A program made the position numbers and the translations under genes. Source: Sulfuritalea sp. (GTDB taxonomy: Bacteria > Pseudomonadota > Gammaproteobacteria > Burkholderiales > Rhodocyclaceae). Taken from it: DNA of 64,000 nucleotides. The notes beneath the pieces are model-generated. The model saw only the letters and a list, made by a program, of their open reading frames with translations. It was not told the DNA's origin and made no database searches. Positions 2,134 to 60,623 of the stretch are shown piece after piece. The stretch spans positions 1-64,000 of the forward strand of contig NZ_JAFLDR010000009.1 of NCBI RefSeq assembly GCF_017302275.1. The letters are read 5' to 3'. Each line of letters opens with the position of its first letter. Position 1 is the first letter of the stretch.

Positions 2134-3107
2134 TGTATTCGAGCGCCCATCCCCGCGCCTACTCGGCCTGCAGCGGCTGCAGTCTTTGCCGCCTGGTCTG
2201 CCCCATGTGGCGTGCCCGGCGCGATCCGTGCTACAGCCCGGAAGGCATCGCCAAGGCGCGCCAGAGCGGCGCGGCGCTTGCCGAACTGGCGCCCGCGCTG
2301 GAGGCCTGCACGCTGTGCGGCGCCTGCGATCCGGTGTGTCCGGAGGATATAGCCCTGTCGGCCATGATCATGGCCCTGCGTCGCGAACTGCCGCCGCATC
2401 CCGAACTCGTCGCGCTGCAGGTCGGCTACCGGCAGGCGGCCGAATCTGCCGCAGCCGACCCGGCGGGCGCGCTGCTGCTGCCGGGTGCCGCCATGCGCGC
2501 CGACCCGGCGCTGCACGAGAAAGTGACGGCCCTGCTCGGCATCCGCGCCGCGCAGGACGACGGCGCCGACATTGCCGTGGCGCTGGAAATCGGCGGGCAG
2601 ATCGCGCCGCAACGCCTGCGCCGCTTCCTCGACGGCCTCGATGGCCGCGGCCTGGTGGTCGGCGACGGCCTGCTGCTGGCCGCATTGAGGCGCTGGCTGC
2701 CCGCCGCGCGGCTGCAGGGCCTGGGCGAGGCGCTGGGCAACCTCAACGCCATCCGGCGCCGTATCGCCAGCGCCGACTTTTACGTGATCGAGGCGCGCGC
2801 CTACCATGCCGACCATGAACGCCTGGTGGCGCACTACGACGCGCTGCGCAAGGAAAGCGGCTGCGCCATGAACCTCGACCTGCAGCGCATCGCCATGCCT
2901 CCGCATGCCAGCGCCTATCCAGGCCTGCGCATCGGTTCGGCGCGCGAGGACCTGGCCCAGGCGCGCTGGCTGCTGCAGGGGCGCAACCCGGCACGCATCG
3001 TGGTCGAGAATGCGGCCGAGCGCGAAGTATTCCGGCGCGTGGCCGACGTGCCGGTGCTGCACCTGGCCGAGCTGGCCGCGTCGAACGAGGAAATTCATCA
3101 TGCGTGA
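2133..3107 (+). CDS. Ferredoxin-type protein with two 4Fe-4S clusters
   Basis: 324 residues. Two CxxCxxCxxxCP motifs lie near the N-terminus: C13, C16, C19, C23 and C59, C62, C65, C69, as in the iron-sulfur subunits of GlpC/GlcF-type oxidases. The CCG domains of those subunits are missing. The C-terminal 240 residues look alpha/beta and I do not recognise them. The start ATG overlaps the stop of the FAD oxidase and the end overlaps the next gene by 8 nt, so the three are translationally coupled. The likely role is electron transfer between the two flavoproteins or to the quinone pool (inference). Residues 209-216 (RRIASADF) are encoded by a copy of the dispersed 24-bp element. Confidence 0.85.
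   Translation: MYSSAHPRAYSACSGCSLCRLVCPMWRARRDPCYSPEGIAKARQSGAALAELAPALEACTLCGACDPVCPEDIALSAMIMALRRELPPHPELVALQVGYRQAAESAAADPAGALLLPGAAMRADPALHEKVTALLGIRAAQDDGADIAVALEIGGQIAPQRLRRFLDGLDGRGLVVGDGLLLAALRRWLPAARLQGLGEALGNLNAIRRRIASADFYVIEARAYHADHERLVAHYDALRKESGCAMNLDLQRIAMPPHASAYPGLRIGSAREDLAQARWLLQGRNPARIVVENAAEREVFRRVADVPVLHLAELAASNEEIHHA
2757..2780 (-). repeat. Dispersed 24-bp element, copy 1
   Basis: Reverse-orientation copy inside the ferredoxin gene. The complement reads AAAGTCGGCG, CTGGCG, AT, ACGGCG, a full match to the family consensus. Here it encodes R-R-I-A-S-A-D-F. Confidence 0.85.
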
Positions 3108-4311
3108 TGTCGATGTCGTCATCGTCGGCGCCAGCCTCGCCGCCGCCGCCGCCGCCAAGCGCACGGTCGACGCCGGACTGGAAACAGTGGTCCTCGAACG
3201 CAAGGAATTGCCGCGCCACAAGATCTGCAGCGGCATCCTCTCGCCGCGCGGCCACCGCTTCCTGCTGGAGAACTTCGGCCCGCTGCCGCGCGAAACGCTG
3301 CACGAGCCGACCTCCTGCCGCGGCGTCACCTTCCATTTCCCCTGCCGCGTCGAAATGCCGATGGATTTCTTCCACGGCACCACGCCGCACCTGCATCGCA
3401 AGTATTCCGACCACTGGGCGATCCAGCGCAGCGGCGCCGAGGTTCACGACCAGACTTCCTTCGCCGGGCTCGAGGAACGCACCGACCACATCATCGTCCA
3501 TGCCCGGCGCGGCGGCGAGCCCATCGAATACCGCGCGCGCCAGGTGATCGGCGCCGACGGCCCGAGTTCGCTGGTGGTGCGCGCGGTCTATCCGGATTAT
3601 CCCAAGCAGATCCCCTGGTTCTTCGTCGGCCAGAAGTTCCACGAGATCATCGACTGCCCCTTGTCCCCGGATTACTTCCATTTCTGGTTCCACCCAGGCC
3701 TGGGACACTACACTTGGAGCCACGCCCGCGACGGGCGCCAGATCGTCGGTGTCGGCTTCAAGCGCGGCGACAATTTCGCCAGGAAGCACCAGGTGGTCGA
3801 GCAGTACCTGAAGGACAAGCACGGCGTGCAGCTGAAGCCGGCCGACGATGACCACGAGGGCTGCGCCGAGAACTTCGGCCCCTCGCTGATCAACCGCTAC
3901 GTCTTCGGCAAGGGCAATGTGCTGGTCACCGGCCAGGCCGCCGGTTTCCTCAACATGATCGGCGAGGGCATGAGCTGCGCCCTGCACTCGGGGGCGATCT
4001 CCGGCGAGGCCATCGTCGAAGCGGCGCGACGCAACCGGCCGGTGCAGGAGATCTACCGCAAGATGATTGCCTCGGAAGTACGGCGTTGCAGCGACCAGTG
4101 GAACCCGCTCAAGATCGCCTTCGACCGGCCGCATGAAGCGGATTTTCCGGAGGCGCTGCTGAAGCTCTCCTGGCGCGAGCGCAAGCTGGTGTTGCGCGAC
4201 ATGTGGAACTTCATCGTGCTGTTCAAGGAATTTAAGTGGGGCCGCCAGATCGCGGCGGCGGCGCTGCAGCGGCCGCTGCTCGGCGGCTACCCGCTGCAGA
4301 AGTGGTTGTAG
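3100..4311 (+). CDS. Geranylgeranyl-reductase-like FAD-dependent oxidoreductase
   Basis: 403 residues. The N-terminus VDVVIVGASLAAAAAAKRT is a Rossmann FAD-binding beta-alpha-beta unit with a modified GxGxxG, followed by an acidic end (VVLERK). CSGILSPRG is a typical second motif of the geranylgeranyl reductase/tryptophan halogenase superfamily. Near residue 280 the segment NVLVTGQAAGFLNMIGEGMS corresponds to the family's GDAAGF motif with the Asp replaced by Gln. Family members reduce isoprenoid double bonds or hydroxylate aromatics; the substrate here is unknown. The gene overlaps the ferredoxin gene by 8 nt, and that protein may supply its electrons. Confidence 0.8.
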   Translation: MRDVDVVIVGASLAAAAAAKRTVDAGLETVVLERKELPRHKICSGILSPRGHRFLLENFGPLPRETLHEPTSCRGVTFHFPCRVEMPMDFFHGTTPHLHRKYSDHWAIQRSGAEVHDQTSFAGLEERTDHIIVHARRGGEPIEYRARQVIGADGPSSLVVRAVYPDYPKQIPWFFVGQKFHEIIDCPLSPDYFHFWFHPGLGHYTWSHARDGRQIVGVGFKRGDNFARKHQVVEQYLKDKHGVQLKPADDDHEGCAENFGPSLINRYVFGKGNVLVTGQAAGFLNMIGEGMSCALHSGAISGEAIVEAARRNRPVQEIYRKMIASEVRRCSDQWNPLKIAFDRPHEADFPEALLKLSWRERKLVLRDMWNFIVLFKEFKWGRQIAAAALQRPLLGGYPLQKWL

Positions 4312-4315
4312 GTGA

Positions 4316-6250
<1,935 letters not shown>

Positions 6251-6254
6251 AGAA

Positions 6255-6278
6255 GCCGAAGGACTTGCGTCCCTCGGC
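6255..6278 (+). terminator. Hairpin between pgm and metY, possible terminator
   Basis: GCCGA (6255-6259) plus GGAC (6261-6264) pair with GTCC (6269-6272) plus TCGGC (6274-6278), with one A-C mismatch. It sits between the 3' ends of two convergent genes, a usual terminator position, but lacks a clean T-tract. Confidence 0.4.
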
Positions 6279-6304
6279 CATTGTTGCGTCGGCTTGCGAC
6301 CGGT

Positions 6305-7576
<1,272 letters not shown>

Positions 7577-7632
7577 GTTCGGGCTTCCTCCGGTCGATGG
7601 GACGCGGAAGTATAGGGTCAATGGGCGCACTT

Positions 7633-8445
7633 ATGAAACGGGTCATGCTCGCGCTGCTGCTGTGGAGCACCCTGGCCTGGGGCCAGGCGCTGGAGATCAT
7701 CGAGCTGCGGCATCGCAGCGCCGAACAGCTGCTGCCGCAGCTCGCGTCCTTCGTCGAGCCGGGCGGCGCGATCACGGGCATGAACGACAAGCTCTTCCTG
7801 CGCGCATCGAGGCGCAACCAGGCCGAGATCCGCGACCTGGTCGCCGCCCTCGACAGGCCCCTGCGGCGGTTGATGATCAGCGTGCGCCAGGACGGCGCCG
7901 ACAGCGGCGCCGAGCGCGGCGCGGGAGTCTCCGGTCGCGTGGAAGTCGGCGTCCCACGGGGACTTCCTCCGGTCGCCGGCGGCACGGCGATTACCGGCCA
8001 CGGCCACCTCTACCAGTCCGACAGCAGCAGCCGGCGCGACATCTCGCAGCAGGTGCAGACCATCGACGGCGGCCGCGCCGCGATCCTGGTCGGCCAGTCG
8101 CTGGTGCTGCCCTTGCGCCAGGTGATCCTGACCCCGCTCGGCGTCGTGGTCTCCGAATCCCTGGTGCAGCGCGACCTCGGCACCGGCTTCGTCGCCGTGC
8201 CGCGCCTCAATGGCGATCGCATCTCCCTGGAGATCAGCCCGCGCGACGACACGCCGGGGCCGCTGCCGGGCTCGGTGAATACCCAGCGCCTGCTCACCAC
8301 GGTCAGCGGCCGCCTCGGCGAATGGCTGGAGCTGGGCGGTTCGGTCGGCGAACAGAGCGGCAGCACCGGCGGGATCACCAGCTACGGCACCCAGTCGGCG
8401 TCGCGCCAGCGCCGGCTTTTGCTCAAGGTCGACGAACTGCCCTAG
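7633..8445 (+). CDS. Orphan secretin-domain (type II/III secretion-like) exported protein
   Basis: About 270 residues. A signal peptide (MKRVMLALLLWSTLAWGQA) precedes a short secretin N0-type domain (ALEIIELRHRSAEQLLPQL to LVAALDRPLRRLMI) like those of PulD/PilQ-type proteins. A Ser/Gly-rich linker and a beta-rich C-terminal part (GQSLVLPLRQVILTP) follow. It is far shorter than a real secretin and lacks the pore-forming barrel. No secretion or pilus genes are nearby, so it may be a periplasmic accessory protein. ATG 7621 is an alternative start four codons upstream. Residues 105-119 come from the long form of the dispersed repeat, in the linker. Confidence 0.75.
   Translation: MKRVMLALLLWSTLAWGQALEIIELRHRSAEQLLPQLASFVEPGGAITGMNDKLFLRASRRNQAEIRDLVAALDRPLRRLMISVRQDGADSGAERGAGVSGRVEVGVPRGLPPVAGGTAITGHGHLYQSDSSSRRDISQQVQTIDGGRAAILVGQSLVLPLRQVILTPLGVVVSESLVQRDLGTGFVAVPRLNGDRISLEISPRDDTPGPLPGSVNTQRLLTTVSGRLGEWLELGGSVGEQSGSTGGITSYGTQSASRQRRLLLKVDELP
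7943..7989 (+). repeat. Dispersed element, long form (copy 2)
   Basis: Begins AAGTCGGCG and ends GGCACGGCG like the 24-bp family, but the middle carries about 23 extra bases including CCCACGGGGACTTCC and CGGTCGCCGG. It encodes V-G-V-P-R-G-L-P-P-V-A-G-G-T-A in the secretin-like protein. A second long copy, in the same reading, lies in lapD. Confidence 0.8.
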
Positions 8446-8562
8446 CCCGGATATTTCACCAGCCCCATGATTTGGGCGCGTAGATATGCTGGACAGGTTG
8501 ATCGTGATGCGAGCGGGGGTATTTGATCAAATTTTGATCGAATACGCGAACTTCATACGGAC

Positions 8563-8614
8563 GCCCCCCAACCCCCGAAGATCACCATGTCGGGAGCGCT
8601 CTCGTTTGTCGCCA
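8563..8614 (-). pseudogene. Possible fragment of a glucose-6-phosphate dehydrogenase start
   Basis: From ATG 8614 the minus strand reads MATNESAPDMVIFGG and then loses the family pattern. This resembles the N-terminus of Zwf, whose NADP-binding motif usually reads V-I-F-G-A/G-T-G-D-L. Only about 17 codons match, so this could be chance or a short leftover of recombination. Confidence 0.3.
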
Positions 8615-8722
8615 TGGGGTCGCCAAGGCGTTGGCGGCGACGAGGTAGATGTCGCGCAGCGGATGGTGCGATGCCAGCAGGATGCGGATTCGCCGCGTAT
8701 TGCGAATCGCCGCCGCGGGTAT

Positions 8723-8746
8723 GCCGTGCCGCCAGCGCCGACTTTT
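8723..8746 (-). repeat. Dispersed 24-bp element, copy 3 (intergenic)
   Basis: The complement of 8723-8746 reads AAAAGTCGGCG, CTGGCG, GC, ACGGC. It is an almost complete family copy and lies outside any gene, which shows the sequence is not kept only for its peptide. Confidence 0.75.
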
Positions 8747-8826
8747 CACCTGCTTCGCCATTCACTGACTCTTGCGTGCCCGGAACGGAGCGCCGGAGTC
8801 CGAAGGGAGTCGGAGACCGATCGCCG

Positions 8827-18302: not shown

Positions 18303-19582
18303 GCGGGATGCTTGAATTCGACGACGCGCTCGGGCGACTGCTTGCCGGCGCCTGCCCGGTCGGCCAGACAGAGTCGGTGCCGACCCAGTCTGCCGCCGGA
18401 CGGGTGCTGGCCATGGGCCTGCATTCCGCCATCGACGTGCCGCCACTGGACAACACCTCGATGGACGGTTACGCCCTGCGTTGCGCCGACGTGACGGCCA
18501 GCGGCGCCCGGCTCGCCGTGGCCCAGCGCATCCCCGCCGGCAGCGTCGGCCACACGCTGGCGCCCGGAACGGCCGCGCGCATCTTTACCGGCGCGCCGCT
18601 GCCGGCTGGCGCCGACGCGGTGGTGATGCAGGAACTCTGCGCGGTGGACGGCGACGCCCTCACCGTGAACCACGTGCCGCATGTCGGTGAATGGATACGG
18701 CGGCGCGGCGAGGACATCGCGGCTGGCGCCGAAGTACTGGCGCCCGGCACGCGCCTGACGGCGGCCCATGTCGGTGTCGCCGCCTCGGTCGGTGCGGCCC
18801 GGCTCACGGTGTTCCGCCGCCTGCGGGTCGCGCTGTTCTCCACCGGCGACGAACTGGCGATGCCCGGCGAGCCGCTCAAGCCGGGCGGCATCTACAACTC
18901 CAACCGCTACACCCTGCGCGCCCTGCTCGAAGGCCTGGGCTGCGCGGTCGACGACATGGGCATCGTGCCCGACTCGCGCGAGGCGACGCGCGCGGCGTTG
19001 CGCAACGCGGCGGCGGGTAACGACCTGATCCTGACCAGCGGCGGCGTTTCTGTAGGCGAGGAAGACCACGTCAAACCGTCGGTCGAGGCCGAGGGTTCGC
19101 TCGACCTGTGGAAGATCGCGATCAAGCCGGGCAAGCCGCTGGCGTTTGGCTCGGTGCGGCGAGAAGTTATGCCGCCGGCGAAGCCGGGGGCGGTATCCCC
19201 TGCGGACGGCGCTGGCGACACGGCGGCATCGGCCGTCGCGGGCCCTGCGGCGGCCTTCATCGGCCTGCCCGGCAACCCGGTGTCGAGCTTCGTCACCTTC
19301 CTCATGCTGGTGCGGCCCTTCATCCTCAAGTGCCAGGGCGGGTCCGAACTGCGGCCGCGCGCGCGGGGCCTGCAGGCGGATTTCGATTGCAAGGGCGATC
19401 CGCGCCGCGAGTTCCTGCGCGCCCGGATCAATGACACCGGCGGGCTGGACCTGTTTCCCAACCAGAGTTCCGGGGTGCTGACCTCCTGCACCTGGGCCGA
19501 CGGCCTGATCGACAATCCGCCGCGCCAGGCCATCGCATCCGGCGACACGGTGCGCTTCCTGCCTTTTTCCGAACTGCTATAG
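18299..19582 (+). CDS. moeA: Molybdopterin molybdenumtransferase, with an in-frame insertion
   Basis: 427 residues. MoeA inserts molybdate into adenylylated molybdopterin. Family blocks present: PPLDNTSMDGYALR, GTAARIFTGAPLPAGADAVVMQE, VALFSTGDEL, GGIYNSNRYTL, DLILTSGGVSVGEEDHVK, KIAIKPGKPLAFG and FIGLPGNPVSSFVTF. Between KPGKPLAFG and FIGLPGNP, where other MoeA proteins have only a few residues, lies an extra stretch at about 287-319. It is rich in Pro, Ala and Gly and ends with a partial copy of the 24-bp element (DGAGDTA). The loop lies near the active-site strand, but the reading frame is intact and all motifs remain, so the protein is probably functional. Confidence 0.93.
   Translation: MSGMLEFDDALGRLLAGACPVGQTESVPTQSAAGRVLAMGLHSAIDVPPLDNTSMDGYALRCADVTASGARLAVAQRIPAGSVGHTLAPGTAARIFTGAPLPAGADAVVMQELCAVDGDALTVNHVPHVGEWIRRRGEDIAAGAEVLAPGTRLTAAHVGVAASVGAARLTVFRRLRVALFSTGDELAMPGEPLKPGGIYNSNRYTLRALLEGLGCAVDDMGIVPDSREATRAALRNAAAGNDLILTSGGVSVGEEDHVKPSVEAEGSLDLWKIAIKPGKPLAFGSVRREVMPPAKPGAVSPADGAGDTAASAVAGPAAAFIGLPGNPVSSFVTFLMLVRPFILKCQGGSELRPRARGLQADFDCKGDPRREFLRARINDTGGLDLFPNQSSGVLTSCTWADGLIDNPPRQAIASGDTVRFLPFSELL
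19204..19225 (+). repeat. Dispersed 24-bp element, partial copy 4 in moeA
   Basis: The last 19 bases (CGGCGCTGGCGACACGGCG) are identical to the copy in hpnC at 60036-60059; the first bases differ (GGA instead of AAAGT). It forms the right part of the extra segment in MoeA. Confidence 0.65.
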
Positions 19583-19844: not shown

Positions 19845-19845
19845 C

Positions 19846-20328
19846 ATGACGGTCAGCGTGCAGGAAGCCGACTTCGACGCCGGCGCCGAGATTGCCGCGC
19901 TGTCGGCCGGGCGTGACGACGTCGGCGCCGTGGCCAGCTTCGTCGGCTTGGTGCGCGCCGACAAGGCGGCAAGAGTCGGCGCTGATCATACGGCAGCCGT
20001 GCAGGCGATGACCCTCGAGCACTACCCGGGCATGACGGAAAAGGCCCTGCAGGAAATCGTCACCGAGGCACGGGGCCGCTGGGAATTGCAGGGCGTGCGC
20101 GTGATCCACCGCGTCGGGCGCCTGCTGCCGGGCGCGCGCATTGTCTTCGTCGCCGTGGCTTCGTCGCATCGCGGCGATGCCTTCGCCGCCTGCGAATTCA
20201 TCATGGACTACCTGAAAACGCGCGCGCCCTTCTGGAAGAAGGAAGAAACCCCTGCCGGCGGCCGCTGGGTCGATGCGCGCGAAAGCGACGACGCGGCGGC
20301 GGGTCGCTGGCAATCCGGAGCGGGTTGA
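19846..20328 (+). CDS. moaE: Molybdopterin synthase catalytic subunit
   Basis: 160 residues. MoaE blocks are clear: VGAVASFVGLVR, MTLEHYPGMTEKALQEIV, VIHRVGRLLPG, IVFVAVASSHRGDAFAACEFIMDYLKTRAPFWKKE (split by my reading into consecutive blocks) and the end RWVDARESDDAA. The catalytic lysines in LKTRAPFWKKE are present. The loop after VGLVRADKAAR contains V-G-A-D-H-T-A (residues 44-50), encoded by a copy of the dispersed element, where relatives have a short variable loop. It is the last gene of the molybdenum cluster. Confidence 0.95.
   Translation: MTVSVQEADFDAGAEIAALSAGRDDVGAVASFVGLVRADKAARVGADHTAAVQAMTLEHYPGMTEKALQEIVTEARGRWELQGVRVIHRVGRLLPGARIVFVAVASSHRGDAFAACEFIMDYLKTRAPFWKKEETPAGGRWVDARESDDAAAGRWQSGAG
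19972..19995 (+). repeat. Dispersed 24-bp element, copy 5 in moaE
   Basis: Reads AGAGTCGGCG, CTGATC, AT, ACGGCA: the first 12 bases match exactly and the right part is slightly diverged. It encodes R-V-G-A-D-H-T-A in a surface loop of MoaE. Confidence 0.75.
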
Positions 20329-23905: not shown

Positions 23906-26488
<2,583 letters not shown>

Positions 26489-30484: not shown

Positions 30485-31711
30485 ATGTCCCCCACTACCA
30501 CTTTCCGCGCCGATGCTGCGGTGATCGCGCTGGTCGGCGTGGCCCATGCCACTTCGCACCTGTTTCACCTTTTGTTACCTCCGCTGTTTCCGCTGCTGAT
30601 GCCCGATTTCGGATTTGGCTACACCGAGGCGGGCTTCCTGATGACGGTGTTCTTCGCCATCTCCGGCGTCGGCCAGGCGCTCGCCGGCATCGTCGTCGAC
30701 CGTTACGGCGCGCGCCGGGTGCTGATGGCTGGAGTCAGCCTGCTGGCGATTTCCGGCCTGGCGCTGGCGGCGGCGACCAGCTACGCGATGCTGGTGCTGG
30801 CGGTGGCGTTGGCCGGCTTGGGCAACGCGGTGTTCCATCCGGCCGACTTCTCGCTCCTGAACAAGAAGGTCTCGCCGGCGCGTCTGGGCCATGCCTTTTC
30901 CGTGCACGGCCTGTCGGGCAACCTGGGCTGGGCGCTGGGCGCGGCGGTTTCCGGCACGGCACTGGCGGGGGCCGGCTGGCGCGGTGCGGGCATTGCCGCG
31001 GCCATGGTGGCGCTGGCCTCGGTGATGGCCTTGCTGTTCGCGCGGCCTCTGCTCGACGACGAGCGGCCAAGAGTCGGCGCCGGCACAACGGCGCAGGGAC
31101 CGGTTTTCGGCTTCCTCAGAGTGCCGGCGATCTGGCTCGCGTTCATGTTCTTCCTCTTGATCACCGCGGCCTTTGGCGGCCTGCAGAGTTTTTCGGTACC
31201 GGTGCTGGGCGGCATTTACGGGATTTCCGCCGCGGTCGCCGTGGCCGCACTCACCGGCTACCTGCTGGGATCGGCGGCCGGCATGGTGGTCGGCGGCTTC
31301 GTCGCGGTCAAGGTTCATGCCCACGATCGCGCCGTGGGCGGTGCATTGATCGGCGCCGCCGTGTTCGCCTCGGTGCTGGCCAGCGGCCTGCCGCCGGCAT
31401 GGAGCGTGCTGCCGCTGATGGTCGGCGTCGGCGTCGGCGTGGGCCTCGCCGGCCCCTCGCGCGACATGCTGGTGCGCCGCGTCGCCACCGAATCGCTGCC
31501 CGGCGGCAAGGAATCGCCCGCCTTCGGCCGCGTCTATGGCTTCGTCTATTCCGGGCTCGATGTCGGCCTGGCACTCGGGCCGCTGGCCTTCGGCATGCTG
31601 CTCGACGCCGGCGGCCGTGACGGCGTGTTGCCCGGCGTCGCCCTGCTGCAGGTGCTGGCGGTGCTGACGGTGCTGGCCATGGGGCGGCGGGTAGCCGTCA
31701 GATCTTCGTAG
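30485..31711 (+). CDS. MFS transporter
   Basis: 408 residues and about 12 TM helices. The MFS signature between TM2 and TM3 reads G-I-V-V-D-R-Y-G-A-R-R-V. The early motif HATSHLFHLLLPPLFPLL and the conserved GLGNAVFHPADFSLL (TM4) place it near the fosmidomycin-resistance/NNP-like group often called MFS_1. The substrate is unknown. The central cytoplasmic loop between TM6 and TM7 (residues about 190-205) contains V-G-A-G-T-T-A from a copy of the dispersed element. It overlaps the convergent acyl-CoA ligase gene by 14 nt at the 3' end. Confidence 0.87.
   Translation: MSPTTTFRADAAVIALVGVAHATSHLFHLLLPPLFPLLMPDFGFGYTEAGFLMTVFFAISGVGQALAGIVVDRYGARRVLMAGVSLLAISGLALAAATSYAMLVLAVALAGLGNAVFHPADFSLLNKKVSPARLGHAFSVHGLSGNLGWALGAAVSGTALAGAGWRGAGIAAAMVALASVMALLFARPLLDDERPRVGAGTTAQGPVFGFLRVPAIWLAFMFFLLITAAFGGLQSFSVPVLGGIYGISAAVAVAALTGYLLGSAAGMVVGGFVAVKVHAHDRAVGGALIGAAVFASVLASGLPPAWSVLPLMVGVGVGVGLAGPSRDMLVRRVATESLPGGKESPAFGRVYGFVYSGLDVGLALGPLAFGMLLDAGGRDGVLPGVALLQVLAVLTVLAMGRRVAVRSS
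31070..31093 (+). repeat. Dispersed 24-bp element, copy 7 in the MFS gene
   Basis: Reads AGAGTCGGCG, CCGGCA, CA, ACGGCG. It encodes R-V-G-A-G-T-T-A in the cytoplasmic loop between the two halves of the transporter. Confidence 0.78.
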
Positions 31712-38275: not shown

Positions 38276-40228
38276 ATGTCGATGTACCGCCAACTCTGGT
38301 TAGCCATTGTTCTCAGCATGCTGCTGGCGCTGGGCGGCAGCCTGTTCGCCACGCTGCTGTCCGCGCGCGCCTACCTGGAACAGCAACTGAGCATGAAGAA
38401 TGCCGACAATGCCGCGGCGCTGGCCCTGTCGCTGAGCCAGCAGGCACCCGATGCGGTCACGCTCGAGCTCACGGTGGCTGCGCTTTTCGACAGCGGCCAC
38501 TACGAGTACATTCGGATACTTGATCCGAACGGCAGGATCATGGTCGACCGGGTGGCGGCCACTGGCGACGCCGGTGCCCCGGAGTGGTTCGTGCGCCGCC
38601 TGCCGATCGCCGACGAGCCCGGCGTCGCGCAGATCACCAATGGCTGGAAGCAACTGGGAAGCGTGTCTTTGCTGAGCCACAGCCGGTTTGCCTATCAGGC
38701 GCTGTGGACCAGCACGCAGGAGATGGTCGCGGCACTGGCGCTGGCCAGCTTCATCGGCGGCTACCTCGGCAGCCTGATCCTGCGCCGCCTGCGGCGGCCC
38801 CTGCAGGCGGTGATCGACCAGGCGGTGGCGATCACCAACCGGCGCTTCGTCACCATCCCGGAACCAAAGGTGCCCGAACTGCGCAAACTGGCTAGCGCCA
38901 TGAATGCCACCGTGCTGCGCCTCAAGTCGATGTTCGAGGAGGAGGCCGCGCGGCTGGAGGCCGTGCGCCGTGAGGCCAATTTCGATCCGCTGACCGGACT
39001 CGCGAATCGTGACTTCTTCATCGCCCAGTTGCGATCGTCGGTGCAGGGCGAGGACTCCACCGGTGGTACGCTGTTCCTGATCCGCGTCGCCGACCTGGTC
39101 GGCATCAACAAGCGGCTGGGCCGCGCCGCGACCGACGACCTGCTGCGGCGCGTGGCCGAGACAATCGGCGCCCCACAGGGACTTCCGTCGGTCGCCGGCG
39201 GTACGGCGCAGGTCGATGCGCTGGCGGCGCGCATGAACGGCGCCGACTTCGCGCTGCTGCTGCCCGGCCGGCAGGCCGGCCGCGAGGTCGCCGAGGCGCT
39301 GCTCGAGTCGCTGGTGGCGTCTATGGAAGCCTATGTCGATGGCGGACCCTCGGCCTATATCGGCATGGGGACCTTCAAGCAGGGGACCGGTCTGCGCGTG
39401 CTGTTGTCACAGGTCGATGCCGCGTTGATTGCGACGGAAGCCGAGGGACTGAATGCGGTGCGCGAAGCCGTGGTGGCGACCGATGACGAAATGCCGACCG
39501 ATGGTGCAGAGTGGGGTCGCATCATCGAACAGGCGCTTGAGCAGCGCTGGTTGCGCCTGGTGTCCTTCCCGGTGGTCGATATGGAGGGCGGGCTGCTGCA
39601 CGTGGAGTGCCCGCTGCGCCTCAAGTTCGATGCCGACGGCGACTGGCAACCGGCCGGGAGCTTCCTGCCGATCGCGCAGCGCCTCGGCTTGGCGCCGCAA
39701 CTCGATTTCGCCGCACTGGAACTGGCGCTCGAATCGCTCGAAGGCCAGGATGTGCCGACCGGCCTGGCCATCAACCTCGCGGCGAGTTCGATTGCCGGGG
39801 CGAATTTCCGGCGCAAGCTCGACATGTTGCTGCATCGCCATCGCAAGGTCGCCAGCCGACTCTGGGTCGAAGTCGCCGAGACCGGCGTGCTGAAGCACGT
39901 CGACGCCTTCCACGAACTTTGCACCCTACTCCGGAGCCACGGTTGCCGGGTCGGTGTGGAACACTTCGGCCGCCAGTTCAGCCAGATCGGGCAATTGCAC
40001 GACCTTGGCCTCGAATACATCAAGGTCGATGCCAGCTTCATCCGCCACCTCGACACCAATCCGGGCAACCAGGCCTTCCTCAAGGGCGTCAGTTCCATCG
40101 CCCATTCGATCGGGACGCTGGTGATCGCCGAAGGGGTGGCGAACGAAGCCGAATTTGCGGCCCTCGGCGGCCTCGGCTTCGACGGAGCGACTGGCCCCTG
40201 GGTGAAACTGGCGGACGCGCCGGTGTAA
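38276..40228 (+). CDS. lapD: LapD-like c-di-GMP receptor with degenerate GGDEF and EAL domains
   Basis: 650 residues. TM1 (about 8-30), a periplasmic LapD/MoxY N-terminal domain (about 31-145), TM2 (about 150-170), HAMP (171-225), GGDEF-like (about 235-385) and EAL-like (about 410-645). Both enzymatic motifs are lost: GGDEF reads NGADF and EAL reads ECP. This fits a receptor, not an enzyme. LapD binds c-di-GMP through the EAL domain and captures LapG. Residues 297-311 in the GGDEF domain are encoded by the long form of the dispersed repeat, in a loop just before the degenerate GGDEF motif. AGGAAAGGAAG precedes ATG 38276. Confidence 0.9.
   Translation: MSMYRQLWLAIVLSMLLALGGSLFATLLSARAYLEQQLSMKNADNAAALALSLSQQAPDAVTLELTVAALFDSGHYEYIRILDPNGRIMVDRVAATGDAGAPEWFVRRLPIADEPGVAQITNGWKQLGSVSLLSHSRFAYQALWTSTQEMVAALALASFIGGYLGSLILRRLRRPLQAVIDQAVAITNRRFVTIPEPKVPELRKLASAMNATVLRLKSMFEEEAARLEAVRREANFDPLTGLANRDFFIAQLRSSVQGEDSTGGTLFLIRVADLVGINKRLGRAATDDLLRRVAETIGAPQGLPSVAGGTAQVDALAARMNGADFALLLPGRQAGREVAEALLESLVASMEAYVDGGPSAYIGMGTFKQGTGLRVLLSQVDAALIATEAEGLNAVREAVVATDDEMPTDGAEWGRIIEQALEQRWLRLVSFPVVDMEGGLLHVECPLRLKFDADGDWQPAGSFLPIAQRLGLAPQLDFAALELALESLEGQDVPTGLAINLAASSIAGANFRRKLDMLLHRHRKVASRLWVEVAETGVLKHVDAFHELCTLLRSHGCRVGVEHFGRQFSQIGQLHDLGLEYIKVDASFIRHLDTNPGNQAFLKGVSSIAHSIGTLVIAEGVANEAEFAALGGLGFDGATGPWVKLADAPV
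39164..39208 (+). repeat. Dispersed element, long form (copy 8) in lapD
   Basis: Begins ATCGGCGCCCC, contains ACAGGGACTTCC and GTCGCCGGCGG, and ends TACGGCG. It matches the long copy at 7943-7989 at nearly every position and encodes I-G-A-P-Q-G-L-P-S-V-A-G-G-T-A. Confidence 0.8.
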
Positions 40229-45792: not shown

Positions 45793-46800
45793 ATGACGAA
45801 ACTGTTCGCAACGCTGGCCGGCACCATTGTCTTCAGTACGCTGATTGCGGGCTTCCTGTCCGCGATCGGTTTTGGCGGTGGTTTCGCCATCAACCTGGTG
45901 TTCTCGCAGTGCATCGGCCTCAGCATCGCGATGCTGCTGCTGGCTGTCCTGCATGCGAACCTGCCGCCGCTGTTGCGCGGCCTGGCGGCGGCGGCCGGCA
46001 TCGTTGTCGGGGCGGCGTTGGGCGGCTTCCTCGGGCGCCTGCTGACCGGCGTCGGCAGGTCCGCCGACGGCGTCCATGAAGCGCAGTCGCTGCTGCTCGG
46101 ACTGGTTTTTGGCGCGATCGCCGCCGGGTTTTTCTGGCTGCGCGAGCGCAATTCCAGTCTTCGGCGCGATCTCCAGGCGCGCGAACTGGCCCGGCTGGAG
46201 GCCGAGAAGCAGGCCCTGGCCGCCCGATTGCGCCTGCTACAGGCGCAGATCGAGCCGCATTTCCTGTTCAACTCGCTGGCCAACGTGGCGGCCCTGATCG
46301 ATGTCGATCCGGGGCGCGCCGGCAGCCTGCTCGACGCGCTGATCCGCTACCTGCGCTCCAGCCTGCAGCGCACCCGCGCCGAGGGCGGCTCGCTCGGCGA
46401 CGAAGTGACCCTGCTCAAGGCCTACCTCGACATCCTGAAGATACGCATGGGCGATCGCCTGGACTACGCCTTCAAGATTCCGCCGCACCTGCTTGGCCGC
46501 GAATTTCCACCGATGCTGTTGCAGCCGCTGGTCGAAAACGCCATTCGCCACGGCCTCGAACCGAAGCTGGGCGGCGGCTTCCTGCAGGTCGACGCCGCAG
46601 TGGCCGACGGATGCCTGCGGATCAGCGTCGCCGATGACGGCGTCGGCATCGCCGAGGCGCCCGGCGAGGGCGTCGGCCTGTCCAACATCCGGGCGCGACT
46701 GCTGGCGCTCTACGGGCCGGCGGCGCGGTTGGAGGTGGCCGCAAAAGTCGGCGCTGGCGTCACGGCGACGCTTGACCTTCCGCTGGAGGCCGCGCCATGA
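45793..46800 (+). CDS. LytS/AlgZ-type sensor histidine kinase
   Basis: 335 residues. Four TM helices in the first 125 residues, then a coiled-coil and the His_kinase domain with QIEPHFLFNSLANVAALI (phospho-His156) and the LytS-type ATPase (LLQPLVENAIRHGLEP, VADDGVGIAE and GVGLSNIRARL). It pairs with the LytTR regulator that starts 4 nt before its end (ATGA overlap). Residues 318-325 (KVGAGVTA) lie in the last strand region and are encoded by a copy of the dispersed element, though related kinases also have G-x-G-x-x-x there. Confidence 0.9.
   Translation: MTKLFATLAGTIVFSTLIAGFLSAIGFGGGFAINLVFSQCIGLSIAMLLLAVLHANLPPLLRGLAAAAGIVVGAALGGFLGRLLTGVGRSADGVHEAQSLLLGLVFGAIAAGFFWLRERNSSLRRDLQARELARLEAEKQALAARLRLLQAQIEPHFLFNSLANVAALIDVDPGRAGSLLDALIRYLRSSLQRTRAEGGSLGDEVTLLKAYLDILKIRMGDRLDYAFKIPPHLLGREFPPMLLQPLVENAIRHGLEPKLGGGFLQVDAAVADGCLRISVADDGVGIAEAPGEGVGLSNIRARLLALYGPAARLEVAAKVGAGVTATLDLPLEAAP
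46744..46767 (+). repeat. Dispersed 24-bp element, copy 9 in the LytS-type kinase
   Basis: Reads AAAGTCGGCG, CTGGCG, TC, ACGGCG, a perfect consensus copy. It encodes K-V-G-A-G-V-T-A at a place where relatives often have a similar peptide, so this site may have been easy to replace. Confidence 0.82.
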
Positions 46801-49260: not shown

Positions 49261-49284
49261 ATCAGTAGCCTCCCCTTGCGGGGA

Positions 49285-49363
49285 GGATGGGAGGGGCGGG
49301 CGTCTAACTCGCCCTTCCGTCGTTTCATTATCGGATGTGCGGCATCGCTGCATGAAAGTTAGG
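49285..49363 (+). repeat. 79-bp intergenic repeat, copy B (before the YbbA-type gene)
   Basis: Starts GGATGGGAGGGG and ends ATGAAAGTTAGG, with CGTTTCAT in the middle and ATCGCTGC before the end. It aligns with copy A at 38183-38261 along its full length. The right end leads straight into the AGGAGG ribosome site of the ATPase gene. TTTCAT and ATGAAA inside it can pair. Confidence 0.75.
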
Positions 49364-49384
49364 CAGGAGGCAAGTTTCTTGAAC

Positions 49385-50074: not shown

Positions 50075-50086
50075 CGGCGATCTTCA

Positions 50087-50110
50087 AAAGTCGGCGCTGG
50101 CCGCACGGCG
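50087..50110 (+). repeat. Dispersed 24-bp element, copy 10 (intergenic)
   Basis: Reads AAAGTCGGCG, CTGGCC, GC, ACGGCG. It lies 12 bp after the ATPase stop and outside any gene, so it is free of coding constraint. Confidence 0.8.
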
Positions 50111-50207
50111 GCAGGGTCTGGAACGCTGCGGCTTTGATGACCGATTCCAGCATCCCAGCTTCATGTTTCTGGTATAAACCGGAGCAGTCCCTCGCAGGAA
50201 AGACCGC

Positions 50208-53030
50208 ATGGCCAAGAAACCCTCTTCCGTCGCCAAGTCGGCTGCCGCGGAAGCCGACATCCTCAGTTACCGCCATCCCGACCGGCGCAAGAACAATCCC
50301 GAGGTCGGCATGGTCACGCCGGCCACCGATCCGGACGACGGCAAGACCACCTGGCAGCATGATCCGCATCTTGACCCGAGCCTGAGCTGGACCGGCAAGG
50401 CCGAGCGCCTGAGCTTCGAGGTCGATACGGTCAGCCTGCACGTGCATGAGCGCATCGACCCGGCGAGCATCCTGTCCGCCGCACGAAAAGTCGGCGCTGG
50501 CGAGACGGCGAAAAGCGCGGCGAAAGACAAGGCCAAGGGAGCGAAAGCCGCGCAGCAGCGCGCCATGCAGCCCGGCCTGTTCGACGCGCCCTTCGAGAGC
50601 CTGCCGCTGCGCGACGCGATCGACTTCTACAAGCACGACAAGGGCTGGAGCAACCGGCTGGTGGCCGGCGACTCGCTGCTGGTGATGAACTCGCTGTTGC
50701 AGAAGGAAGGCATGGCCGGGCAGGTGCAGGCGATCTATTTCGACCCGCCCTACGGCATCAAGTACGGCTCCAACTTCCAGCCCTTCGTGAACAAGCGCGA
50801 CGTCAAGGACCGAAAGGATGAGGACCTGACGCAAGAGCCGGAAATGATCAAGGCCTTCCGCGATACCTGGGAACTCGGAATTCATTCCTACCTGACCTAC
50901 CTGCGCGACCGGCTGCTGCTGGCGAAGGAGTTGCTCTCCGAGTCGGGCAGCGTGTTCGTGCAGATTGGCGACGAAAACCTCCATCACGTTCGGGAAATAC
51001 TAGATGACGTATTTGGCGCAGAGAATTTCGTAAGTGTTATCACCTTCAAGAAGACCGCAGGGCAAACATCACTTTATCTGCCGGGCACAACTGACTTCAT
51101 CATTTGGTATGCAAAAGATCCAGCGCGCCTCAAGTTTCGCACCTTGTTTCGTGAGCGGGCTATGGGAGACGACGGATCAGATGCCTATACATCGGCTCGA
51201 CTTGCAAACGGTTCTATCCGGCGCCTAGCTGCTGAAGAGCTTTCGGGTGCGACTGCCATTTCTTCCGACGTTCGTCCTTTTAGATATCAGCTTGCTACGA
51301 GTCAGCGCGAAGGTCGTCCTTCTGGCGAAGGATCGGCCATGCACTTCCCAGTTCGGCTAAAGGGTGAAGACTTCTACCCAACTGCAAATCGAGGTTGGAC
51401 TGCGACATCGGGAGGCATGGAGCGGCTTGTAAAAGCGGGGCGCATGGCTAAGCAGGGTGCCAATGCAACGTATGTGCGCTATCTCGACGATTTCCCTGCA
51501 ATTCCAATAACCAACTTTTGGGCAGACACTCAGTCTGGCAGCGGAATGGACAAGGTGTATGTAGTCCAAACAAGTCAGAAGATCATCGAACGCTGCCTCC
51601 TGATGACCACCGACCCCGGCGACCTCGTGCTCGATCCGACCTGCGGCTCGGGCACCACGGCCTACGTCGCCGAGAAGTGGGGCCGGCGCTGGATCACCTG
51701 CGACACCTCGCGTGTGGCGGTGACGCTGGCCAAGCAGCGCCTGATGACCGCGAGCTACGACTACTACGAGCTGCGCTATCCGCACGAGGGCTTGCGCGGC
51801 GGCTTCATCTGGAAGACGGTGCCGCATGTCACGCTGAAATCCATCGCCAACAACCCGGACATCGACGCGATCTACGAACGCCTGCACCCGGCCATCGAGC
51901 AGGCGCTGGCCGAGTTGAACAAGGCGCTGAAGGCCGAGGCGCAGGAATGGGAAGTTCCCTTCGATTTCCCCGAGGGCGCCGACGAAAAGGCACGGCTGGC
52001 CTTCGCGGCCTTCCACGCCGCGCGCCAGGCGATGCAGAAGGCGATGGACCGTTCCATCGCCGGTCACGCCGATCAGGAAACGCTCTACGACCAGCCGGCG
52101 AAATCGAAGTCCAAGCTGCGCATCACCGGGCCGTTCTCGGTCGAGGCCGTGCCTTTCCCGACCGTGCAGGCGCTGGATGATGAGAGTCGGCGCTCGCGGG
52201 ACGGCGCTCAGTTGGGTACATGGTCAGCCGATGCGAGCATTGCGCGCTCCGGCGAGTCCTCGCGCCAGCACCAGTGGCGAGACGAACTGCTGAAAACCGG
52301 CATCCGCGGCAAGGGCGGGCAGATGCTGAAGTTCGCCGAGCTGGAAACCCTGCCGGGCACCAAATACCTGCACGGCACCGGCCATACCGAAGACGGCCAG
52401 CGCGTCGTCGTGCATTTTGGCCCCGAGCATGCGGCGCTGGAACAGCGCGCGGTGACCAATGCGCTGGAAGAAGCCGGCAACCTGTTCCCGCTGCCGAAGA
52501 TGATCGTCTTCTGCGCCTTCACCTTCGACCCGGAGGCGGCGAAGGACATCGACCACCTGAAGGGCATCACCGCGCTCAAGGCGCAGATGAACACCGACCT
52601 GCTGACCGAGGACTTGAAGAAGGCGCGCTCGTCGAACCAGTCCTTCTGGCTCATGGGTCAGCCGGACGTGGCGGTGCGCAAGCGCAAGGACGGCCTGTTC
52701 GAGGTCGAGGTCAATGGCTTCGACTATTTCGACACCGCCAAGGGCGAACTGGTCTCGGGCGGCAAGGGCCGCATCGCGATGTGGTCGCTCGACACCGACT
52801 ACGACGAACGCTCGCTGTTCCCGCATCAGGTGTTCTTCCCGCTCGCCGGCAAGGGCGAGGGCTGGGAAAAGCTGAAGAAGGACATCCGCGCCGAACTCGA
52901 CGAGGACGCGCTGGAAGCCTTCCACGGCACCGTCTCGCTGCCCTTCGCGGCGGGCGATAACCGGAAGGTGGCGGTGAAGATCGTGGACGACCGGGGAATC
53001 GAGTCCTTGCGCGTCGTGGGATTGGATTGA
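50208..53030 (+). CDS. Type III restriction-modification methyltransferase (Mod)
   Basis: 940 residues. Motif IV DPPY is at 179-182 (AIYFDPPYGIKYG) and motif I LDPTCGSGTT at about 476-485. This beta-class order is typical of Mod, which methylates adenine in an asymmetric site and gives the complex its specificity. The region between the motifs (about 50985-51590), which holds the target recognition domain, is visibly richer in A and T than the flanks. A long C-terminal extension (about 620-940) mediates assembly. Two copies of the dispersed 24-bp element lie inside the gene in different frames (K94-A101 and E659-A667). res follows after one accessory gene. Confidence 0.93.
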   Translation: MAKKPSSVAKSAAAEADILSYRHPDRRKNNPEVGMVTPATDPDDGKTTWQHDPHLDPSLSWTGKAERLSFEVDTVSLHVHERIDPASILSAARKVGAGETAKSAAKDKAKGAKAAQQRAMQPGLFDAPFESLPLRDAIDFYKHDKGWSNRLVAGDSLLVMNSLLQKEGMAGQVQAIYFDPPYGIKYGSNFQPFVNKRDVKDRKDEDLTQEPEMIKAFRDTWELGIHSYLTYLRDRLLLAKELLSESGSVFVQIGDENLHHVREILDDVFGAENFVSVITFKKTAGQTSLYLPGTTDFIIWYAKDPARLKFRTLFRERAMGDDGSDAYTSARLANGSIRRLAAEELSGATAISSDVRPFRYQLATSQREGRPSGEGSAMHFPVRLKGEDFYPTANRGWTATSGGMERLVKAGRMAKQGANATYVRYLDDFPAIPITNFWADTQSGSGMDKVYVVQTSQKIIERCLLMTTDPGDLVLDPTCGSGTTAYVAEKWGRRWITCDTSRVAVTLAKQRLMTASYDYYELRYPHEGLRGGFIWKTVPHVTLKSIANNPDIDAIYERLHPAIEQALAELNKALKAEAQEWEVPFDFPEGADEKARLAFAAFHAARQAMQKAMDRSIAGHADQETLYDQPAKSKSKLRITGPFSVEAVPFPTVQALDDESRRSRDGAQLGTWSADASIARSGESSRQHQWRDELLKTGIRGKGGQMLKFAELETLPGTKYLHGTGHTEDGQRVVVHFGPEHAALEQRAVTNALEEAGNLFPLPKMIVFCAFTFDPEAAKDIDHLKGITALKAQMNTDLLTEDLKKARSSNQSFWLMGQPDVAVRKRKDGLFEVEVNGFDYFDTAKGELVSGGKGRIAMWSLDTDYDERSLFPHQVFFPLAGKGEGWEKLKKDIRAELDEDALEAFHGTVSLPFAAGDNRKVAVKIVDDRGIESLRVVGLD
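50487..50510 (+). repeat. Dispersed 24-bp element, copy 11 in mod
   Basis: Reads AAAGTCGGCG, CTGGCG, AG, ACGGCG, a perfect consensus copy. It encodes K-V-G-A-G-E-T-A near the N-terminus. Confidence 0.88.
52183..52206 (+). repeat. Dispersed 24-bp element, copy 12 in mod (other frame)
   Basis: Reads AGAGTCGGCG, CTCGCG, GG, ACGGCG. Here the frame is shifted, giving E-S-R-R-S-R-D-G-A instead of K-V-G-A-G-x-T-A. Confidence 0.82.
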
Positions 53031-53037
53031 GGCGGCG

Positions 53038-57704: not shown

Positions 57705-58972
57705 TTCGCGTTCATGACAAGGCGCGCTGCTGCCACGCCGCTGCGCACCGCACCTTCGAGGGTCGCCGGGTAATCGCCGGCGACGTAGTCCCCGGCTAGC
57801 CACAGGCCGGGCAGGCCGCTGGCGGCGGCAGGCCGCGACAGGTTCGGCACGCAGGCGAAGGTGGCGCGCTTCTCGGTGATGGTCTGCACCTTCAGCGGCG
57901 CCGGCAGGCCGGGCACCAGCCGCGCGATTTCGCGATGGATTCCTGCTTCCAGCTCCTCCGCCGGTAGTTCCAGGTGCCTGCCGCGCGCGCTGATGACGGC
58001 GGCGACCAGGCCCTGCTGGCCGCACAGGGCACCACGATCGAACAGCCATTGCGCGAGCCCGGCGTCGACGCCCAGCATCGGCTGCGGCAGGCGCGTTGGG
58101 GGTGGATAGCTGAAGTAGCTGGTGACGATGGGTTCCCAGTCAAAGTGTTCCACTTGCGTAGCCAGTTCCGGAACCAGCGCGGCGAGATGGTAGGGCGCGA
58201 CGGCGACCACCACCTGGGCGAACGGCCCCGCGTCGTCAACGCGCCAGGCGTCGCCTTCGCGCCGCAGCGCGGCGACGCGATGGCCCGGATGGACGCTGCC
58301 GCCGCGTTGCCTGACGAACTCCGCCGCCGGTTGCGGAAACATTCGGGTGAGGTCGACTTGCGGCAACAGCATGTCGCTGGCTTCGCGGGTGCCGGCCAGG
58401 CTGTCGCGCAGCACGTTGGCCAGGACCTGGGCCGAGGCGCGCTCGGCCGGCGTGTTCAGCGCGGCGATGCACAGCGGTTCCCACAAAAGTCGGCGCTGGC
58501 GCGACGGCGTTTTGTTTGCGTCCAGCCATGCGGCGACCGTGATGTCCGGTTCGACGCGGAACCGTCGTGCTTTCAACCCCTGCATGAGGCGGATCGCGGC
58601 AAGCTTCTCGCGCCAGTCGAGCCCGCGCGCCAGCAGCAGGGCGAAGGCTGTGTGCAGCGGCGCCGGCAGGTGCGGTGCGCTCATGAGGAATTCGCCAGGG
58701 AACTCGAAGCGCAAGGGCGCGCGCCGCAACAGGCGCCCGGGATCGGCGCCGACCGCGCGCATCAGGCGCTGGGTTTCCGCATAGGCGCCGACCAGGATGT
58801 GCTGCCCATTGTCGACCTCGAAGCCGTCGATGCGCGCCGCGCGGGCGCGGCCGCCGAGTACGCGCGAGGCTTCGAAGACAGTGACATTCCGCCCGGCGGC
58901 GGCAAGTTCCACGGCCGCGGCCATGCCGGCATAGCCGGCGCCGATGACGGCCAGCTTCAGGCCATCAGCCAC
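57701..58972 (-). CDS. hpnE: Hydroxysqualene dehydroxylase
   Basis: 423 residues. The FAD-binding motif VIGAGYAGMAAAVELAAAG, the VFEASRVLGGRARA acid and GFEVDNGQHILVG block identify the amine-oxidase/phytoene-desaturase family. The position after hpnC and hpnD shows that it is HpnE, which converts hydroxysqualene to squalene. GTG 58972 was chosen; the longer TTG start would overlap hpnD further. Residues about 156-162 (PSRQRRLL) come from a copy of the dispersed element in reverse orientation, next to the conserved WEPLCIAALNTP block. Confidence 0.92.
   Translation of the reverse strand: MADGLKLAVIGAGYAGMAAAVELAAAGRNVTVFEASRVLGGRARAARIDGFEVDNGQHILVGAYAETQRLMRAVGADPGRLLRRAPLRFEFPGEFLMSAPHLPAPLHTAFALLLARGLDWREKLAAIRLMQGLKARRFRVEPDITVAAWLDANKTPSRQRRLLWEPLCIAALNTPAERASAQVLANVLRDSLAGTREASDMLLPQVDLTRMFPQPAAEFVRQRGGSVHPGHRVAALRREGDAWRVDDAGPFAQVVVAVAPYHLAALVPELATQVEHFDWEPIVTSYFSYPPPTRLPQPMLGVDAGLAQWLFDRGALCGQQGLVAAVISARGRHLELPAEELEAGIHREIARLVPGLPAPLKVQTITEKRATFACVPNLSRPAAASGLPGLWLAGDYVAGDYPATLEGAVRSGVAAARLVMNAN
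58486..58509 (+). repeat. Dispersed 24-bp element, copy 13 in hpnE
   Basis: Reads AAAGTCGGCG, CTGGCG, CG, ACGGCG, a perfect copy, opposite to the gene. In the gene's frame it encodes P-S-R-Q-R-R-L-L. Confidence 0.85.
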
Positions 58973-59790: not shown

Positions 59791-60623
59791 GATCGGGCTT
59801 CCAGGGGGCGGACCAGCGAGCGCCACAGGATACGCGGCCAATCGGCGGCCTGCAGCACCGGCCGTCGGGTGAAGACATCGTAGTCGACGGCCTCGATCTT
59901 ATCCAGGATGCGCAGGCCGCCGGCCACGATGGCGCGGATTTCAAGGCCGATGCGGCCCGGCAGGTCCCAGCCCAGCGAAGCGCCGGAGAGCATCAGGGCG
60001 CGTGCCCGGTCGACCTGGAAGCGCAGCAGATGTCGAAAGTCGGCGCTGGCGACACGGCGCAGAATCGCCGCGTCATCGACGCCGAAGCGCGCCATGTCGT
60101 CCCGCGGCAGGTAGATGCGGCCTGCGCTGCCCTTGCCTGCGTCGATGCCGACGTCCTGCCAATGATTGATCAGTTGCAGCGCCGAACAGATCGCGTCGGA
60201 GCGTCGCAGGTTCTCGGCCGTGGCATGGCCGAACAGATGCAGCAGGAGGCGGCCGACCGGATCGGCGGAGCGGCGGCAGTAATCCATCAGTTCGGCGAAG
60301 TCCTGGTAGCGGTCCTTGACCACGTCCTGCTGGAATGCGTCGAGCAGGTCGCGGAACAGTTGCGCCGGCAATTCGTACCGCGCTACGACAGGGCGCAGGC
60401 GCAGGAATATCGGATGCCGGGTTGGCGTAACGCTCGCCATGGCGTCGAGTTCGGCCTGGTATCCGGCCAATAGCTCCCTGCGCCGCTCCGGCGCCAGGTC
60501 GCCTTCGTCGGCGAAGTCGTCGGCGCTGCGGGCAAAGCCGTAGATCGCCGCCACCGGCTCGCGCAGCGAGGCCGGCAGCAGGATGGACGCAACGGGAAAG
60601 TTCTCGTAATGATCGACGGCCAT
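59787..60623 (-). CDS. hpnC: Hydroxysqualene synthase
   Basis: 278 residues, squalene/phytoene synthase family. Motifs FARSADDFADEGD (first Asp-rich) and NHWQDVGIDAGKGRIYLP-like (second Asp-rich, with NHWQDV as typical for HpnC), and YCRRSADPVGRLLL. It turns presqualene diphosphate into hydroxysqualene. First gene of the leftward hpnCDE operon; ATG 60623 was chosen over TTG 60641. Residues about 189-196 (RRVASADF) come from a copy of the dispersed element, read in the same frame as the copy in the ferredoxin gene. Confidence 0.93.
   Translation of the reverse strand: MAVDHYENFPVASILLPASLREPVAAIYGFARSADDFADEGDLAPERRRELLAGYQAELDAMASVTPTRHPIFLRLRPVVARYELPAQLFRDLLDAFQQDVVKDRYQDFAELMDYCRRSADPVGRLLLHLFGHATAENLRRSDAICSALQLINHWQDVGIDAGKGSAGRIYLPRDDMARFGVDDAAILRRVASADFRHLLRFQVDRARALMLSGASLGWDLPGRIGLEIRAIVAGGLRILDKIEAVDYDVFTRRPVLQAADWPRILWRSLVRPLEARS
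60036..60059 (+). repeat. Dispersed 24-bp element, copy 14 in hpnC
   Basis: Reads AAAGTCGGCG, CTGGCG, AC, ACGGCG, a perfect copy opposite to the gene. It encodes R-R-V-A-S-A-D-F and shares its last 19 bases with the moeA copy. Confidence 0.85.

Follow-up and report, generated by a model that had tools for sequence, protein, structure and literature searches.

What keeps one short piece of DNA nearly unchanged inside many unrelated genes? The question is raised by the first 64,000 nucleotides of a contig from Sulfuritalea sp. (G000:C88:1-64000, 65.6% GC, hereafter the window), which belongs to a 4.41-Mb draft genome, G000. A preliminary description of the window listed 14 copies of a short dispersed repeat and offered three options for it: a signal resembling those for DNA uptake, a binding site of a chromosome protein, or a tiny selfish element. 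We find that the repeat is real and is part of a genome-wide word with consensus RAAAGTCGGCGCTGGCGNNACGGCG, and that the conserved unit is 25 bp long rather than the 24 bp first given. Our preferred reading, which we hold with a little less than even confidence, is that the word is a genome-wide signal kept near its consensus by biased transmission (molecular drive), most likely through preferential uptake and homologous recombination in natural transformation, and that it would work like a DNA uptake sequence (DUS). Among the three options, the uptake-like one fits most of our tests, the selfish element is a possibility of lower rank, and a plain binding site under selection at each place is the least likely.

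The excess of the word over chance is large. Allowing up to three mismatches, there are 749 copies in the 4.41 Mb of G000, compared with 5 (1 + 4) for the reversed pattern used as a control. Both strands are in use, as had been described, and they are used evenly (378 plus and 371 minus in G000; 353/353 in the related genome G069). Within the window, 11 matches to the 24-bp pattern with at most three mismatches compare with none in 100 dinucleotide shuffles. Shuffling the codon order of 450 long stop-to-stop open reading frame (ORF) segments, which we picked ourselves and which make up 651 kb of an 864-kb sample of G000, leaves 0 matches in each of five shuffles, against 92 in the real segments. 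The genome-wide count is therefore far above chance, where the preliminary description would have had us abandon the repeat if it were not, and such over-representation of one short word is a feature of uptake sequences. In the 864-kb sample, which is not random since about half of it was picked around exact copies, the copies with 0-6 mismatches number 41, 34, 39, 18, 16, 11 and 28, and those of the reversed pattern 0, 0, 0, 0, 1, 8 and 37. From these counts, copies of the word are real up to about four mismatches. The information content of the word is about 34.6 bits, a figure inflated by the picking of copies at four mismatches or fewer, and 13.5 bits would be enough to mark 749 sites. Because 21 positions are held at hundreds of sites in unrelated genes, with 34.6 bits in place of 13.5, a process with a preference for the word itself is a better fit than selection acting site by site.

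It is the DNA and not a peptide that is maintained. Among 130 copies in G000, 79 lie in coding sequence (CDS, called by the codon usage of ORFs) and the other 51 are intergenic or unclear; out of 400 random positions, 292 are coding. The coding copies occupy all six frames, in agreement with the earlier remark that the encoded peptide varies with frame and strand: KVGAGxTA accounts for 40 of them, RRxASADF for 17, and the other four frames for 9, 7, 3 and 3. The word does not differ from frame to frame, and because the frames occur so unevenly, we conclude that proteins filter where it is tolerated. We also compared orthologous sites in 171 ordered pairs from six genomes, each site having been picked because one genome of the pair resembled the consensus there. 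Identity at the 21 core positions is found in 3335 of 3591 comparisons (0.929), as against 201 of 342 (0.588) at the NN positions inside the word and approximately 0.83 in the flanks. Six frames, together with a core conserved above both its flanks and NN, establish maintenance at the DNA level, which bears out the earlier statement that the DNA is either under selection or moving. A shared peptide in distant orthologues had been named as a sign to the contrary; at five sites (MFS, MoaE, ClpB, HpnC, HpnE), order-level outgroups are without the peptide.

Sulfuritalea and a few of its sister genera are rich in the word, which is near chance in most other genomes sampled. The named records closest to the window's HpnD protein are metagenome-assembled genomes of Rhodocyclales and Sulfuritalea. 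Within the family, 17 of 150 genomes (its own included), from eight genera, have at least 64 matches, and the remaining 133 have 0-32, most of them 0-10. At the level of the class, 21 of 369 sampled genomes have a match at two mismatches or fewer, and none except the word's own genome has more than two matches. A tree of 80 named HpnD proteins (a single gene, midpoint-rooted; at most 20.9 kb of each record served to judge whether the word is present) places 24 word-bearing rows in one fork of 25 with support 86/76. The sole row without the word in this fork is L156, which has one match at four mismatches in 20.8 kb. The tree needs two changes for the presence of the word, a number that a single gain and a single loss would account for. 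One genome, G056, has 24 matches, several of the best crowded on contigs C66, C104 and C557, possibly through contamination or transfer. Another irregularity lies in G000 itself, where 120 kb of contig C1 (80001-200000; L035-L040) with 56-58.5% GC are free of the word and copies stand on both sides in the contig. This stretch has 0 copies at up to four mismatches, where about 20 are predicted from 749 in 4.41 Mb, and looks like an acquired island.

Comparison between genomes shows the word persisting, changing its spelling and decaying at fixed places. At the hpnE site it is found in 28 of 32 sequence sets, with 5-6 mismatches in one more, and is lacking in three; the sets include the same genome twice (e.g., L141 and G160), so the genomes are fewer. 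In G117, 14 distinct copies at shared sites carry A at core position 8 in ten cases and A at position 6 in four, and their partners carry A at neither position in 62 comparisons. Among 35 sampled G117 copies, A at position 8 reaches 43%, against 0 in the other genomes sampled. At the MFS and MoaE sites (L442, L086) this dialect changes glycine to aspartate, so protein conservation is not its cause. Small samples show other spellings in G008, G019, G045, G064 and G138, so that dialects between lineages, a further feature of uptake sequences, are seen at the shared sites of G117 and, in those small samples, in other genera. Decay is clearest in G163, a member of the same genus with 27 matches at one mismatch or fewer, as against 252-599 in 18 other members searched; it has four copies at up to four mismatches in 96 kb, and its words are decayed or absent at the sites compared. 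The hpnE site of L156 likewise holds a decayed word, its length unchanged. Copies have thus decayed in two lineages of this genus, G163 and L156, and their comparison with sister lineages could reveal the maintaining gene.

Is a copy an insertion or a replacement? This check, proposed in the preliminary description, gives answers that differ from site to site. In protein alignments, the hpnE and hpnC sites are equal in length to those of outgroups that have no word there. The MoaE loop exceeds that of most outgroups by 7-8 residues, and the MoeA site of G160, a copy with four mismatches, is 36 bp longer than in three genomes; both look insertion-like. The ClpB copy sits in a length-variable linker, and the MFS outgroups are too distant for length to be judged. 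A broader comparison took 128 copies (at most three mismatches) from 33 sequence sets at 43 sites; it leaves out four-mismatch copies, splits some sites in grouping, and covers a small part of the genome. At 11 of the 43 sites, at least one orthologue is without a recognizable word, which gives 31 comparisons in all. None of these 31 shows a clean empty site with a net difference of -24 or -25 bp. Length is equal in ten; the positive differences are +12 (five), +21, +24 (four), +30, +39 and +72, several of them words with nested inserts, and the negative ones are -3, -6, -15 (two), -19 (three) and -44.

These nested inserts are repeats in their own right. Relative to G160, the closest relative (mean 88% nucleotide identity to G000 where aligned), G000 has 24 additional bp at 7941, 24 at 39160 and 39 at 19162, each inside the word, in frame, palindromic and absent from G160. 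The copies first described as long (7943, 39164) and partial (19204) are therefore present, but they are whole words interrupted by an insert. We searched the sampled genomes for such modules free of any flank condition and read the matches by eye. A-type modules (T[AT]TG, stem, GRTATCCC) occur 14 times inside the word and at least seven times outside. For C-type modules (CCCCACRGGGACTTCC, up to two changes), 9 of 12 matches in G000 are inside the word and one more is in what is probably a decayed word; the single matches in G069 and in G160 are both inside. B-type modules, found in the NN slot, lie inside the word in 4 of 7 matches, and one further match has only the right end of the word. 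Both ends could be located for 12 A-type modules inside the word, and 11 of these have lengths that are multiples of three (24, 27, 39, 42), the remaining one being 38 bp long; hpnC of several genomes has a 12-bp insert. The modules form separate palindromic families. They lie mostly but not only inside the word, and since the word takes up little of the genome, it looks like a landing site that they prefer. Beside both 24-bp inserts, the NN bases are identical in G000 and G160, which argues for insertion of the modules rather than their arrival with long conversion tracts.

One may speculate, with considerable doubt, that these observations describe a two-layer system, in which a 25-bp word under concerted evolution across a bacterial clade is also the preferred landing site of several families of 12-42-bp palindromic modules. 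The modules would lie at fixed points (after AAAGT, after GTCGG, and in the NN slot), most of them with lengths that are multiples of three. A module folding out as a hairpin could place the word's two halves next to each other again, so that the signal would survive its own interruption. We know of no described repeat or uptake signal with such two-layer behavior. Stand-alone palindromic repeats of the form TATGTC-stem-GACGGTATCCCC, relatives of the A-type modules, are also seen outside the word in samples of G000, G069 and G117.

Here we give the copies of the window in order. All 14 places listed in the preliminary description carry the sequence described there when the coordinates are re-read, and the list holds 10 of the 11 pattern matches, having missed 8396-8419 on the minus strand; its four further places are the two long copies, the partial copy and the degenerate copy at 19972. 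An exact word at 2757..2781 (minus) opposes an ORF with a Fer4 domain (1017-3107, plus), reads RRIASADF, and is at the same place in all three genomes aligned (G160, G069, G117); the ORF, whose start is uncertain and which has internal stops in relatives, was excluded from the length tests. The word at 7941..7989 (plus) holds a nested 24-bp insert at 7950-7973 in frame with ORF 7489-8445, and its orthologues in G160, G069 and G117 have the short 25-bp form. This host is the one described earlier as secretin-like; ORF 7521-8483, which overlaps it in another frame, has no Pfam match. The missed copy at 8396..8420 (minus) is a decayed word with two mismatches; the site has the same length and is more decayed in G160, and better copies exist in G069 and G117. 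The word at 8722..8746 (minus) is intergenic, as inferred from the ORF layout. In moeA, the word at 19162..19225 (plus) holds a 39-bp palindromic insert at 19168-19206, in frame. The copy listed at 19972 is present as a degenerate word, 19971..19995 (plus), in the extended MoaE loop. The ClpB linker has its word at 25456..25480 (plus; KVGADGTA). Two further plus-strand words, at 31069..31093 in an MFS transporter (RVGAGTTA) and at 46743..46767 near the C-terminus of a histidine kinase (KVGAGVTA), are each at the same site in all five other genus members aligned. Between them, at 39160..39208 (plus), a word in a LapD-type protein holds a nested 24-bp insert at 39169-39192 in frame, where G160 has the short form.

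The remaining copies are all on the plus strand. The word at 50086..50110 lies upstream of a methylase gene and is intergenic by ORF layout. Inside that gene, a copy at 50486..50510 (KVGAGETA) is also present at the orthologue in G159, and a second one follows at 52182..52206 in the ESRRSRDGA frame. The copies at 58485..58509 in hpnE (PSRQRRLL) and 60035..60059 in hpnC (RRVASADF) are antisense and are the length-neutral sites discussed above; the hpnC word is found at the same place in Sulfurisoma (L167) and in L211. Pfam matches of the hosts are MoeA, MoaE, ClpB, MFS, LapD-type GGDEF/EAL, histidine kinase, DNA methylase, an amine-oxidase-type protein, an SQS/PSY protein and the Fer4 protein, and the gene names Mod, HpnE and HpnC given earlier fit these matches. 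The methylase with its two copies belongs to a block at 49200-57700 (DNA methylase, Schlafen/AlbA-RecG-like, ResIII) that is missing at this place in G160.

How could uptake maintain the word? DNA carrying it would be taken up preferentially and recombined homologously in natural transformation, which would keep the word up at hundreds of places, many of them old. A pilus-type receptor might read the word, the uptake bias would be the drive, and the decayed lineages (G163, L156) may have lost the reader. According to passages of PMC1939737, it is point mutation and not insertion that gives rise to uptake sequences, which are non-palindromic and without orientation bias, and favor non-coding or unconstrained coding DNA; dialects between lineages are described in passages of PMC3630211. 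Preferential uptake explains the use of both strands, the unconstrained sites, the upkeep at fixed places, the dialects, the decay and the empty stretch. The word is a candidate, and not an established member, of the DUS or of the uptake signal sequences (USS). Our literature search, which covered few subscription papers, found no known repeat in Sulfuritalea and no uptake sequence in Rhodocyclales.

Several observations weigh against this interpretation. The length of the word and its approximately 34.6 bits exceed the uptake words named in the published passages. Sorted by local GC skew, the copies in 380 kb sampled from G069 show a weak and noisy strand bias (46 vs 28), where uptake sequences are without orientation bias. 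ComEC was found in 37 of 37 genomes searched, and the core uptake machinery is therefore present; being found with or without the word, ComEC does not discriminate, and we dropped it as a marker. Modules common to unlinked sites mean that DNA has been copied into the word. An exact-match scan of IMG/VR finds at least 120 stretches with the word, holding 185 copies, and some of the contigs with several copies have phage genes. Among six stretches viewed more closely, L306 has two copies with antirepressor, endolysin and tail genes, L304 five copies with tail proteins, and L398 six copies in 13 kb with a ParB-like protein and a methyltransferase. Finally, 41 kb around 14 Y1-transposase genes of element-rich genomes (among loci L461-L486) contain 18 copies where 7.8 are expected (P 0.001), about twice the expected density. 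As a separate observation, four word copies in L304 (882-1854) stand at an exact spacing of 316 bp, as in a tandem array. Uptake leaves four features unexplained: the modules, the copies on viral contigs, the MoaE and MoeA sites that look like insertions, and the excess near Y1 genes.

Those four features are explained by a mobile element with conversion, which we regard as the main rival reading and as less probable than drive through uptake. The word would then be a tiny non-autonomous element copied in frame into genes, with conversion keeping its copies alike and the longer forms carrying hairpin modules. Its high information content would fit, as would the gains of 24, 24 and 39 bp inside the word relative to G160. 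The missing empty sites are not explained: 31 comparisons contain no 24- or 25-bp gap, and hpnE and hpnC are length-neutral. Moreover, the dialect change in G117 conserves the sites, and no transposase was identified, the Y1 type (Y1_Tnp) not being found in 7 of 17 element-rich genomes searched.

It is unlikely that the word serves as the binding site of a protein that organizes the chromosome or acts in replication or repair, with selection keeping it at each place. Conservation at the DNA level, the genome-wide spread and the hpnC site common to several genera are in keeping with such a role. Yet some 21 nearly fixed positions at about 750 sites in unrelated genes would seem to need drive, strand polarity is not strong in either G000 or G069, and copies have decayed in two relatives.

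Still less likely is a repetitive extragenic palindrome (REP) of GTAG/GTMG type with a short stem (CGCYG/CGGCG), moved by the REP-associated tyrosine (RAYT, Y1) transposases. GTCG stands just before a possible 5-bp stem, which is pairable in 83-96% of 290 distinct copies, and passages of PMC3733652 describe REPs whose tag is as loose as GTMG, and stems of 5 bp in Thauera. Over the five pairs, however, changes are one-sided in 253 cases (including T.G to C.G, which still pairs) and two-sided in 7; the pairs are kept because the bases are conserved. RNA folds of the short and long forms are no better than those of shuffles, and 79 of 130 copies lie in CDS where a REP would be extragenic. The excess around Y1 genes, with copies on both sides of the gene in 4 of 14 loci, contrasts less when set against three other genes, around which 43 copies lie in 180 kb (2.4 per 10 kb). 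With neither stem compensation nor extragenic location, we rejected REP/RAYT for the word itself. Repeats of other kinds were also seen: in two Y1 loci (L467 of G069, L468 of G000) the transposase genes are flanked by inverted GGGGACAGACCACG-like repeats unlike the word, and in G117 (L230-L233) the orthologue of the G159 site at 66885 has GTAGGAGCGAGCTTGCTCGCGA and its inverse, presumably a classic-looking REP pair, where G159 and G001 have the 25-bp word. Codon or peptide bias, or an artefact, might be suspected from the 40 of 79 coding copies in one frame, and is ruled out by the use of all six frames, the 51 non-coding or unclear copies and the empty codon shuffles.

To our knowledge, no uptake signal is known from this group of environmental bacteria. 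Should the word be one, the old question of whether such signals evolve for sex, for food or through drive could be tested comparatively. A mobile word would rank with the smallest known elements, and would be one that is often placed inside working enzymes. On either reading, provided that the sample with 79 of 130 copies in CDS is representative, a DNA process writes approximately 8-9 amino acids into hundreds of unrelated proteins.

Known systems resemble the word to different degrees. The small dispersed repeats (SDR) of Nostoc have units of 20-odd bp, some of them in genes, and are reported as insertions; the word differs in having no clean empty site at the sites compared. GTAG/CGTC REPs and the Rickettsia palindromic elements (RPE) are also short repeats, some in frame in genes, and are palindromic like our nested modules (passages of PMC3733652). 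In contrast to them, the word shows no compensating changes in its possible stem, is found mainly in CDS, leaves length unchanged at two sites and changes dialect at fixed sites. The Pasteurellaceae USS, in the passages of PMC1939737, is similar in being non-palindromic, arising by point mutation and favoring unconstrained sites, and differs in its unrelated sequence. The Neisseriaceae DUS differs in bacterial group, in length (10 bp, as against 25 bp for the word) and in copy number (approximately 1900-5900 in the published passages, as against about 750), and it is the word that has nested modules. With the DUS the word shares the great excess of one short sequence and genome-wide dialects between lineages (passages of PMC3630211), and in this it resembles the "self" tags by which some bacteria recognize the DNA they take up.

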